From Gemmatimonas phototrophica (GTDB taxonomy: Bacteria; Gemmatimonadota; Gemmatimonadetes; Gemmatimonadales; Gemmatimonadaceae), in NCBI RefSeq assembly GCF_000695095.2, contig NZ_CP011454.1, positions 248,001-312,000 of the forward strand: DNA of 64,000 bases, read 5' to 3'. Made by a program: the position numbers and the translations under genes. The notes below the pieces were generated by a model. That model made no database searches and had not been told where the DNA came from. It saw only the letters and a program-made list of their open reading frames with translations. Below, piece after piece: positions 18,736 to 22,768 of this stretch (position 1 is its first letter; every line of letters starts with the position of its first letter).

Positions 18736-19438
18736 ATGCTGTGGACTGTCCCTCTCCTCGCGGTCGCGGTAGTCTAGCCGCCGCGCGCGACCCGTCTGGA
18801 AATTTCGCCCGCCGACCCGGTGGTGGTGGCCGAAGACACGCTGCGTTTCTCGGCGCGCGTCCTGGATGCCAATGGGCAGGTCGTTCCTGGCGCCACCATT
18901 CGCTTCATTGCGGCCGGTGGCCGCTTTGAAGGGACCGTCGAGCCGTCAGGGTTGGTGCGCTCCGGAAGCACCGGCACGTTGCCGGTGACGGTGGTGGCCC
19001 AGATGCCCAACCAGCCCACCATTACCCAGCGTATTGAAGGGCGCCAAGGATGCCTCGGCCGGTCGCGCCTACGGTCGCCTGCAGGTGATCGACGTGAGCG
19101 ACATCGCGAAGCCCAAGAGCGTGGCGTTCTATGAGCCGGAGTACGGCGGCGTGCACAACGTGTACGTGGCGGGCGATACGCTGTACATGAGCGCCTACAA
19201 CGCGGGCTTCCGCACCTTCGACATTTCGGGAGAACTGCGCGGCGATCTGCGTGCGCAGCAGCGTGAGATGGTGCACGTGAACACTGCCGACATGGACGGA
19301 TTTGTGAAGAACGCGGCCATGACCTGGGGTGTGGTGGTGCGCAACGGGCTGGCGTACGTGAACGACATGTACAACGGCCTTTGGATTGTGCGTATGGATC
19401 CCAAGCCGGAACCGAAGAAGAACGCCATCGTTCCCTGA
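18736..19438 (+). pseudogene. Broken Ig-like/LVIVD-repeat secreted protein
   Basis: Three pieces of one gene in tandem. A signal-peptide start (ATG 18736, MLWTVPLLAVAVV) ends at an in-frame TAG (18775). The same frame resumes as an Ig-like domain (VVAEDTLRFSARVLDANGQ) up to about 19035. There coding jumps frame into LVIVD-type repeats (LQVIDVSDIAKPKSVAFY, VYVAGDTLYMSAYNAGFRTF) running to a stop at 19438. The abrupt junction, with no LVIVD start motif, suggests an internal deletion plus frameshift. Probably non-functional, although the C-terminal part from 19034 could still be translated. Confidence 0.7.
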
Positions 19439-19448
19439 GGATCGCGTG

Positions 19449-20609
19449 ATGCATCGGGTGGGTATGGCTCTGCTGTTGTGCGCGACGAGTGCGGCCCCGG
19501 TGGCCGCACAGTTCCCGTCGCGCACCTACACCGCGCTGGTGGCCAGCGAGAGCGCGGACCGCGTGGCAGTTATCGAACTGGGGCCGCAAGGCGCCAAGGT
19601 CGTGCGGCAGCATGACGTGGGGGTGATGATTGCCGACCCCGACGGCCCGCACGGCTTGGCCCTGGAGCCCGGCGGCAAGTACTACTACGTGAGCACCGCG
19701 CACGGAACGCCCTACGGCGTGCTTTGGAAGTTCGAGACGCGCACCAACACGTATGCGGGGCAGGTGATGCTGGGAAATTTTCCGGCCACCGCGCAGGTGA
19801 CCCCCGATGGCAGCAAGGTGGTGGTGGTGAATTTCAACCTGCACGGCGACATGGTGGCCAGCGACGTGAGCGTCGTGCGCACCGACAGCCTGCAGGAGAT
19901 TGCCCGCATTACCACCTGCGCCATGCCGCACGGGTCGCGGGTGAACAGCGCCGGCACGCGGCACTACAGCGTGTGCATGATGGACGAACAGCTCGTGGAG
20001 ATCGATCTCGACGGGCTGCAGGTGGCGCGGCATTTTCTGCTCACCAAGGGGGCAGAGCAGGGGATGACCGGCGCGCCACCGGTGCGTGGTGCCATTTCGG
20101 CTTCCGCTGATGCGGCGCACGCCGGCCACGATATGAGTGGCCATGGACTCGCGCAGCCGGCGGCGGGGAGCACGACCTGTTCACCTACCTGGGCGCAGCC
20201 GAGCCCCGACGACAAAACGGTGTGGGTGGCGTGCAATGGCACGAGCGACCTGGTGGAGGTCGATGTGGCCTCGTGGAGTGTGCGTCGCCGCATTCCGGCA
20301 GGGAACGGCGTGTACAACCTCGCGGTCACGCGCGACGGCACGAAGCTCGTGGCGTCCAACAAGCGCGGCCAGAGTGTGTCGGTGATTGACGCGCGTACGG
20401 GCGCCACGCTGGCGGTGTTGCCAACACAGCGCCGCGTGGTGCACGGAGTGGCCATCACGCACGACGATCGCTACGCGTTCGTGTCGGTTGAGGGGGTGGG
20501 GAGTGAGCCGGGCACGGTCGAGATTATCGACCTTGTGTCCTTGAAGACCATCGCGCGCGTGGACGTTGGTCAGCAGGCTGGTGGGATTGACGTGGTGCCG
20601 CCGCTTTAA
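19449..20609 (+). CDS. Secreted YncE-like beta-propeller protein
   Basis: 386 residues from the ATG at 19449, with a signal peptide ending VAAQ. Repeated blades of the YVTN/cytochrome-d1-like type are visible: DPDGPHGLALEPGGKYYYV, ATAQVTPDGSKVVVVNF, WAQPSPDDKTVWVACNG, YNLAVTRDGTKLVASNK and VAITHDDRYAFVSVEG. A His-rich insert HAGHDMSGHG in the middle may bind metal. Predicted periplasmic or extracellular; ligand unknown. It begins 10 bp after the broken LVIVD gene, suggesting the two once formed an operon. Confidence 0.8.
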   Translation: MHRVGMALLLCATSAAPVAAQFPSRTYTALVASESADRVAVIELGPQGAKVVRQHDVGVMIADPDGPHGLALEPGGKYYYVSTAHGTPYGVLWKFETRTNTYAGQVMLGNFPATAQVTPDGSKVVVVNFNLHGDMVASDVSVVRTDSLQEIARITTCAMPHGSRVNSAGTRHYSVCMMDEQLVEIDLDGLQVARHFLLTKGAEQGMTGAPPVRGAISASADAAHAGHDMSGHGLAQPAAGSTTCSPTWAQPSPDDKTVWVACNGTSDLVEVDVASWSVRRRIPAGNGVYNLAVTRDGTKLVASNKRGQSVSVIDARTGATLAVLPTQRRVVHGVAITHDDRYAFVSVEGVGSEPGTVEIIDLVSLKTIARVDVGQQAGGIDVVPPL

Positions 20610-20652
20610 GCTGCGGTTTGGGTTTGGTGTGTGCGACCCGCGTTCAGCGTCC

Positions 20653-20735
20653 GCGCGCGGGGCGCTCGCCATTTCGGGGCGGCCGGGCGCGCATGCGCGC
20701 CGGCGTCGCCCCTGCCAAGTACTCGCCCCCCGCGC
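20653..20735. repeat. Structured repeat, copy 1
   Basis: Core 20665-20726 (starts CTCGCCATTTCGGGGCGG, ends CTGCCAAGTACTCGC) with an internal near-palindrome GGCGCGCATGCGCGCC. Flanked by GCGCGGGGCG and CGCCCCCCGCGC, which can pair as an outer stem. The core is repeated in inverted orientation at 21369-21431 with three differences in 63 positions; the flanking stem sequence is different there. Confidence 0.85.
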
Positions 20736-20842
20736 ACGGCCGCCGAACGCGTCCACATCCCGGCGAACCGCGTGGTCGTGGTGCCTACGGGCGGGGACTC
20801 GTGCCGAGTGCGGCGCTGACAACGGCGATGGCTACGGCGCTA

Positions 20843-21280
20843 CTACGGCGCGCTGAACGGCAACGTCACACGCCGCACGAGAGCACTGCCGTCGGGCTGC
20901 TGAACCTTGAGGGTCACGCTGCGCGCCGGTGCCGCGGCGAGCGTGTCGGCGGCCACCAGCCGCGTGGGCATGGCGAGGCAGTCGCCATTTTCTGATTCGG
21001 CGATGAACCGCACCGCGAGTGTGTCCGGCGCCCGGTTCACGCGTTCCGTGCGTAGCAATCTGCTGCAACTGTTGCCGCCGACCAGCCCGTGGTACGTGGC
21101 AATGGCGCCACCACTCGCGAACGGTGCGACGCTCACGCTGTCCACGCGCACCACGTATTGATCGCGCCCGAACACGTCCCACAACCCGCACGCCGACAGA
21201 AACGGCACCAGCAGCGCGATGCCAGCTACGGCCACTCGTCGGCCTGCCGGCCGTGATGCAATGCATTGGGAATTGCACAT
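20843..21280 (-). CDS. Hypothetical lipoprotein
   Basis: 145 residues from the ATG at 21280. The N-terminus has arginines, a hydrophobic core and the lipobox FLSACG, so a lipid-anchored extracytoplasmic protein. The mature part contains DSVSVAPFASGG and LRTERVNRAPDTLAVRF, predicted mainly beta. I do not recognise the family. It is bracketed by inverted copies of a 63-bp structured repeat. Confidence 0.6.
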   Translation of the reverse strand: MCNSQCIASRPAGRRVAVAGIALLVPFLSACGLWDVFGRDQYVVRVDSVSVAPFASGGAIATYHGLVGGNSCSRLLRTERVNRAPDTLAVRFIAESENGDCLAMPTRLVAADTLAAAPARSVTLKVQQPDGSALVRRVTLPFSAP

Positions 21281-21343
21281 GCCGAACGCTAGTACGGCGC
21301 CAGCCGCGGCGGCACCACGATCCTGCGGCTCACCCCAACGCGA

Positions 21344-21457
21344 GGCGCTCAGCGGGACCGCGCCGGGCGCGAGTACTTGGCAGGGGCGACGCCGGCGCGC
21401 CACGCGCGCGCGGCCGCCCCGAAATGGCGAGTGCCCGGCGCGGTCCCGCTGAGCGCC
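21344..21457. repeat. Structured repeat, copy 2, within a 25-bp perfect inverted repeat
   Basis: A 25-bp left arm starting GGCGCTCAGCGGGACC (21344-21368) is the exact reverse complement of the 25-bp right arm 21433-21457. Between them is the inverted core copy (21369-21431), which can itself fold (GGGGCG 21383-21388 with CGCCCC 21415-21420, and GCCGGCGCG with CGCGCGCGGC). The whole forms a 114-nt rod-like hairpin. The direct repeat CGCCGGTCGAACAA occurs at 21454-21467 and 21494-21507 just beyond. Confidence 0.9.
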
Positions 21458-21526
21458 GGTCGAACAAGAGTGCCCGCTGCGATACCGCCCGGACGCCGGT
21501 CGAACAACACCAAGCCAACCCCAGCG

Positions 21527-22768
21527 TCAGACGCCAGCCAACGTCCCGTACGTCCGCTCCACGTACTCGTTCAGAATCACGAGGAACTCGGGCACGATAT
21601 TGTCACCCTTGAGCGTCGTGAACAGCTTGCCGTCCACGTAGACCGGGGCCTTGGGCTCCTCGAACGTGCCCGGCAACGAGATGCCGATGTTCGCGTGCTT
21701 GGACTCACCCGGGCCATTCACCACGCACCCCATCACCGCCACCTTCATTTCCACCACGCCCGGCTTCGACTCGCGCCACACCGGCATCTGCTCACGCAGA
21801 TAGCCCTGAATGTCTTCCGCCATGCGCTGGAAGAACGTGCTCGTGGTGCGGCCACACCCCGGGCACGCCGTGACCTGCGGGGCGAAGGAACGCAGCCCCA
21901 GCGACTGCAGAATCTGCTGCGCCACAAACACTTCTTCGCGGCGATCCCCACCCGGCTTGGGCGTGAGCGACACACGAATCGTGTCGCCAATGCCCTCGCT
22001 CAGCAGAATGGACAACGCGGCCGCCGACGCAATGACGCCCTTGTTGCCCATTCCCGCTTCCGTGAGCCCCAGGTGCAACGGGTAGTCGCAGCGCTTGGCC
22101 AGACGGCGATAGCACTCCACCAGATCCTGCACCACCGAAATTTTGGCGCTCACGATGATCTTGTTGTGCGCGAGTCCCACTTCTTCGGCCAGTGCCGCCG
22201 ACCGCAGCGCGCTCTCCAGCATCGCGTCCATGTACACGTCCTTCGCGTCGCGCGGCGTTGCCGAGCTGGCGTTGGCGTCCATCATGTCGGTGAGCAGGTT
22301 CTGGTCGAGCGAGCCCCAGTTCACCCCAATGCGCACCGGCTTGCCGTGATCGATGGCCGCCTGCACGATGGTCGTGAAGTTGGTGTCGCGGTGCTTTGTG
22401 CCCACATTCCCCGGATTGATGCGGTACTTGTCCAGCGCCGCCGCCGTCTTGGGGTACTTGGTGAGCAGCAGGTGCCCGTTGTAGTGGAAGTCGCCAATGA
22501 GCGGGACATCGAGCCCCAGGTCATCGAGCCGCTGCCGGATTTCCGGGACCGCCTGCGCCGCTTCGTCATTGTTGACCGTAATGCGCACCTTCTGCGAGCC
22601 GGCCTCGAACAGCGCCGCGACCTGTTCGGCCGTACCGGCGGCGTCAGCCGTATCGGTATTGGTCATCGACTGCACCACAATGGGCGCCGACGAACCGACC
22701 GGGACATTGCGGACCATGGCCGTGACCGTGGGGCGACGACGACCGAAGTGCGAGGCAGATGACGACAC
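21527..22768 (-). CDS. ispG: 4-hydroxy-3-methylbut-2-enyl-diphosphate synthase (GcpE)
   Basis: 413 residues, two-domain bacterial IspG: N-terminal TIM barrel beginning with [16 protein letters not shown]-terminal reductase-like domain with the [4Fe-4S] ligands in TACPGCGRT (two Cys) and [10 protein letters not shown] (third Cys). It catalyses the penultimate step of the MEP isoprenoid pathway. Stands alone; divergent from the gene at 22849. Confidence 0.96.

Follow-up and report, generated by a model that had tools for sequence, protein, structure and literature searches.

The window considered here is a stretch of 64,000 nucleotides (positions 248001-312000) of the single-contig, 4.72 Mb genome of Gemmatimonas phototrophica. 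A pair of mutually inverted hairpins occupies the space between a beta-propeller gene on the + strand and ispG on the - strand, and a small lipoprotein open reading frame (ORF) is located in the spacer. Copy 1 is read on the - strand and copy 2 on the + strand, and this reading is referred to as strand F. The features of the locus, with the matches to the covariance model (CM) described below, are:

19386-20609, + strand: beta-propeller gene (weak Cytochrom_D1 match; stop codon 20607-20609)
20626-20639, - strand: outward tail of copy 1, reading GGGTCGCACACACC on the - strand; this tail type recurs in other copies
About 20640-20752, - strand (strand F): whole hairpin of copy 1; core 20665-20726; CM match G000:C1:268646-268745 (-), E 1.9e-8
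20772-20789, + strand: inner motif GTGGTCGTGGTGCCTACG, facing the spacer from copy 1; the spacers of L072-L074 contain a similar motif
20843-21280, - strand: small ORF for a lipoprotein, lying within the spacer but not belonging to the repeat
21311-21323, - strand: spacer-facing inner motif of copy 2; it reads GGATCGTGGTGCC on the - strand and is inverted relative to the copy 1 motif
21344-21457, + strand (strand F): whole hairpin of copy 2; core 21369-21431; CM match G000:C1:269350-269450 (+), E 1.6e-9
21458-21507, + strand: outward tail of copy 2, associated with a direct repeat of 14 bp (CGCCGGTCGAACAA; 21454-21467 and 21494-21507)
21527-22768, - strand: ispG (GcpE match)

The first-pass annotation described two inverted cores differing at three of 63 positions, and alignment of copy 1 (+) with copy 2 (-) reproduces three differences, comprising two substitutions and a one-base gap. 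The perfect 25-bp pair reported to enclose the copy 2 core is likewise present (21344-21368 with 21433-21457). The copy 1 stem exceeds the extent initially given, reaching about 20640-20752 with G.U pairs included, and the tail of this copy sits shortly past the stop codon of the beta-propeller gene. The outer stems, previously considered unrelated but self-complementary, are self-complementary but not wholly unrelated, as the core-adjacent bases are alike in the two copies (GCGCGGGGC versus GCGCCGGGC, a G-C pair being exchanged for C-G). On strand F, each copy folds into a variable outer stem, an internal loop and an apical stem of the form GGGGCG-AC-GCCGGCGC. Folding z-scores against dinucleotide shuffles are -4.3 (copy 1) and -8.4 (copy 2) on the strand reading AGTACTTGGCAGGGGCGACGCC, and -1.6 and -7.3, respectively, on the opposite strand. 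The paired, inverted structured cores at this locus are thereby confirmed. No Rfam covariance model matches the window at gathering score, and the sole weak match in 20600-21520 (mir-9250; E 2.1) is located outside the hairpins.

The pair does bracket a lipoprotein gene in the window, as had been noted, but this arrangement is apparently incidental. Homologues of the lipoprotein ORF occur in six of the 29 other Gemmatimonas genomes searched (30-49% identity), none being found in G006, G018 and G009. The site shared with the window in G006 and G018 is an intergenic space without the lipoprotein gene, and since these two relatives lack it, the gene between the window copies looks incidental. The hairpins represent no conserved gene cassette.

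A DNA search of 30 Gemmatimonas genomes identified more copies, which have the apical stem and a GAAG strand in common and differ in their outer stems. A covariance model was built from 27 copies and scored on the candidates from a first look (at most 135 per genome) with a match cut-off of E ≤ 1e-4, and all match counts are lower bounds. At least 18 matches are present in the genome of G. phototrophica, and copies occur in at least 16 of the 30 Gemmatimonas genomes. A looser run of the model on the G. phototrophica genome additionally yielded weak partners for two of the copies and a small number of doubtful places, while the sole additional one-mismatch match of CTGCCAAGTACTCG in this genome (L003) shows no similar hairpin and was dropped as a chance occurrence. 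Among the candidates scored in broader samples, matches were found in 6/148 genomes at the family level (one of 35 genera) and 15/288 genomes at the order level (one of 79 genera), with no genus other than Gemmatimonas represented. An exact-pattern scan of 84,980 species genomes furthermore returned 36 stretches, 31 of which derive from Gemmatimonas relatives; the other five belong to unrelated bacteria and have weak model scores (the best match, at E 0.0009, covers part of the model). The genome-wide count and covariance model called for by the first-pass annotation have as such revealed a dispersed hairpin family, restricted to the genus Gemmatimonas, and a literature search at the listing level found no account of such repeats in this genus.

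In total, 92 copies were counted in 63 loci (62 fetched loci and the window). Each arm is an imperfect hairpin of roughly 110-150 nt, in which the apical stem (GGGGYG-AC-GCCGGCGC) and the internal loops are conserved and the outer stem is variable yet self-complementary; beyond the outer stem, a short outward tail reads about GGCGTCTCGCGCGCACC or GGTCG..CACACC. Wherever both orientations are present at a locus, their order is (-,+) with the tails outward (26/26 loci) and never the reverse; among the partner copies in these loci, three score weakly, at 24-30 bits, and another three reach 33-34 bits. Partial tandem duplications of the 3' arm can be observed in L073 (2183-2300), L074 (2193-2316) and L080 (2434-2559), apparently reflecting two independent cases. 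The spacer of a dimer 3' of an aconitase gene (L078:2240-2865) holds about 600 bp of apparently lower GC content, which is possibly foreign.

Two loci on contig C1 of G. phototrophica, L073 and L074 (about 40.5 and 54.8 kb; ~14 kb apart), have a whole dimer in common and dissimilar flanks. Identity between the dimers is 98.8% across one stretch of 167 bp and 95% across another of 205 bp. Both have the same 3' arm partly duplicated in the same way, and the L074 spacer contains an additional insert relative to that of L073. The presence of one dimer, together with its own partial duplication, at two unrelated places indicates that dimers are copied as units, and the description of a mobile hairpin in the first-pass annotation is supported by this duplication and by the dispersal of the family. 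As with MITE-like elements, the unit is found at unrelated sites and has no transposase of its own, none being recognised in those spacers between hairpins that were read.

Site occupancy is lineage-specific. The model finds no copy at the L073 site in six relatives (G021, G018, G009, G005, G006 and G001), and different sequences, several of them palindromic as well, were read there in the first four. G006 has the pair at the window site, and a single arm was recovered from each of G018 and G009, while no copy is found in G001, G021, G004 and G026; other palindromes are located there instead in G001, G021 and G004, and other sequence in G016, G005 and G013. Neither a target-site duplication nor a clean empty site could be defined, since the intergenic regions compared are too diverged. 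The unrelated long inverted repeats in the beta-propeller/ispG space of L056 and L069 are of a GCAGAG type, and that of L068 is of a CACAGA type. The L073 site itself (1867-2340; C1 about 40.4-40.8 kb) is intergenic, lies beside a ParA-like gene and is flanked by two parS-like TTTCACGTGAAAC motifs, and every relative read has a repeat of its own at this bracketed site (L073, L134, L135, L136 and L138).

The filling of both the window and L073 intergenic sites by other long palindromes in relatives is compatible with a function as bidirectional terminators or insulators between converging genes, for which hairpins free in sequence could be replaced by other palindromes. Such a function is, however, improbable. 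A TTTT run in the 15 nt following the hairpin, on either strand, is found in none of 88 copies, a terminator scan finds no terminators at the hairpins, and the 22 classifiable independent sites comprise 13 co-directional, seven convergent and two divergent gene arrangements (one further site is unclassified).

On the basis of crude gene calls, and with copies that are not independent, 65 of the 92 copies are located 3' of their outward neighbour and 24 are 5' of it, with three lacking a call. Recurrent neighbours, named by eye from sequence, are aconitase (on its 3' side; eight loci) and a topA-like gene (six loci), with ispG, ilvD and fabF-like genes also represented. The occurrence of the aconitase and topA-like sites in many species suggests that these are old, possibly retained copies. 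Tandem GGGGTC repeats number 34 in 53 kb within 300 bp of the hairpins versus one in 191 kb of comparison stretches, but the latter are mostly coding and the enrichment may only reflect intergenic placement.

The conserved core with re-paired flanks put forward in the first-pass annotation is borne out by covariation of the stems. Across 72 distinct aligned rows, which are in part related and thus not independent, and in an alignment fitted to the model, which favours pairing, 97.9% of cells pair. Double changes occur at 11 of 23 pairs (105 such cells versus 20.9 expected in shuffles), and the covariation score is 0.209, compared to 0.067 in shuffled alignments (0/500 as high) and 0.031-0.051 in slid controls. 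In the window, the copy 2 outer stem differs from its G006 orthologue at eight pairs; each of these is a double change yielding a Watson-Crick pair, and the 25-bp stem contains no broken pair. Both the further copies and the conserved pairing on which the initial proposal had been made to depend are therefore present. One-sided, uncompensated stem changes nevertheless predominate, especially between close relatives and orthologues (237 one-sided broken changes versus 70 compensated in 30 hand-chosen comparisons, flank pairs included), and hence strict constraint does not act on the pairing, which is seemingly restored over time. Whether the compensated changes cluster was assessed in 20 chosen pairs, two of which could not be anchored and many of which are affected by alignment slippage; 6 adjacent changes were counted versus 3.1 expected, a value equalled or exceeded in 58/1000 shuffles, and any clustering is therefore at most tentative.

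The hairpins of E. coli REP elements protect or regulate message, and the Gemmatimonas hairpins could similarly constitute cis-acting structured RNAs at mRNA 3' ends, being transcribed with the upstream gene and protecting or regulating its message. The position just 3' of the outward neighbour, seen for 65 of the 89 copies for which such a neighbour was called (calls being crude and copies not independent), the nature of the neighbouring genes, the conserved internal loops and the covarying stems all agree with this. However, the outer-stem mismatches on strand F, usable in 90 of the 92 copies, comprise 30 G.T versus 28 A.C and display no strand preference, giving no sign that one RNA strand is the thing kept; the corresponding whole-hairpin counts, 114 G.T versus 77 A.C, are dominated by conserved mismatch positions. 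Furthermore, the wobble strand of copy 1 is not the strand transcribed from the gene beside its tail, and in the G. phototrophica genome four of ten sites are convergent and two divergent, a weak placement bias. A structured RNA is as such an unlikely, if conceivable, explanation.

Covariation may alternatively have a mutational origin, as template switching between the arms of imperfect palindromes is a known route by which arms become alike, as outlined in PMC8604942 and PMC7202029.

The hairpin form, dimers and intergenic placement also match classical REP/REPIN or TIR families, which would here be moved by RAYT/TIRYT-type Y1 transposases of the genus. The motif GGGGTGAC of the type C copies fits GGGGWSAS, reported for TIRYT ends in PMC3733652, while the window copies, with GGGGCGAC, deviate from it by one base. 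The Y1 transposase domain PF01797 is present in eight of the 30 Gemmatimonas genomes, including five of seven copy-rich genomes versus three of 23 others (p 0.007, uncorrected for kinship), and as Y1 presence tracks high copy number, Y1 enzymes may play a helper role in trans. Movement by these enzymes in the classical manner is nonetheless improbable. The G. phototrophica genome, the richest in copies, has no PF01797 match, and the eight Y1 loci, covered to about 1.5 kb or less on each side, harbor no convincing hairpin copy (best model match E 0.21); two of the three Y1 loci inspected for repeats carry inverted repeats of a different, GGGGTC type. The REP/RAYT assignment of the first-pass annotation can thus not be upheld in the strict sense. 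Small palindromes of the form AAAGGGGTCAGAGTCG...CGACTCTGACCCCTTT can be observed beside or between hairpins in L091 (2213-2243), L092 (2182-2218), L093 (2225-2255), L101 (2314-2350) and L102 (1252-1282) and resemble the ends at Y1 genes of the genus. GGGGTC-type mini-palindromes, as found at Y1 genes, also occur inside or beside some hairpin dimers.

The family shares features with several known systems. According to PMC3733652 (Di Nocera et al. 2013), the TIR repeats of TIRYT tyrosine transposases are likewise long inverted repeats with partial self-complementarity that occur as dispersed dimers, with a GGGGWSAS-like motif as in the type C copies. The Gemmatimonas repeat differs in flanking no Y1 gene found, in its presence in a genome without a Y1 match, and in combining conserved internal loops with outer stems that change in concert. 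REP, REPIN and BIME elements (see PMC3116915) are similarly palindromic, intergenic and arranged in inverted dimers between co-directional or convergent genes. The Gemmatimonas hairpins, at about 110-150 nt, exceed the 20-40 bp of REP palindromes, number about 20 copies per genome, which is low for a REP-like family, and occur in a genome without RAYT; no GTAG/CGTC tag was found before the stem, the strand at the tag position reading GACG or CGACC. ERIC and similar enterobacterial imperfect palindromes of 100-170 nt (see PMC2229807) are alike in size, imperfect palindromy, intergenic location and non-autonomy, but unlike, in a comparison by description rather than by sequence, in that the Gemmatimonas repeats form strict tail-out dimers with strongly covarying outer stems and are restricted to one genus. 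Overall, the family works like a REPIN or TIR dimer, yet it fails to match REP elements in size and tag, and no RAYT association was found.

The attC sites of integrons are also imperfect hairpins, in which unpaired positions are conserved and the sequence of the stem is free. The Gemmatimonas hairpins resemble them in all three respects, but occur in inverted pairs, whereas attC sites form direct arrays. Rather speculatively, and with little probability, the hairpins could represent a folded single-strand substrate for recombination or transposition outside of the integron and Y1 systems, in which an undescribed enzyme would read the loop geometry and tail, leaving the stem free so that its arms could drift together with activity kept.

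We suggest that the two window copies probably form a single palindromic repeat, dimeric and non-autonomous, of which each is one arm and which is copied to new intergenic sites. The unit would consist of tail, hairpin, spacer, hairpin and tail, with the tails always outward, and a transposase supplied in trans, using the folded single strand as its substrate, would probably copy it as a dimer. The repeat would settle chiefly where the neighbouring genes are co-directional or convergent, frequently a short distance 3' of a gene, and its outer arms may remain complementary through arm-to-arm template switching or structural selection, either of which could produce the matched changes. The lack of a transposase found with the hairpins and of a target-site duplication or clean empty site counts against this dimeric repeat, as do the sites common to many species, the mostly uncompensated changes between close orthologues and the low copy number of about 20 per genome.

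The analysis documents a dispersed palindromic repeat family, found only in Gemmatimonas, without a recognised transposase. With conserved loops, stems that change in matched pairs and orthologous sites, it provides a natural series of hairpins which can separate structural selection from template switching. It furthermore cautions against assuming a functional RNA wherever stems close to genes show matched changes.
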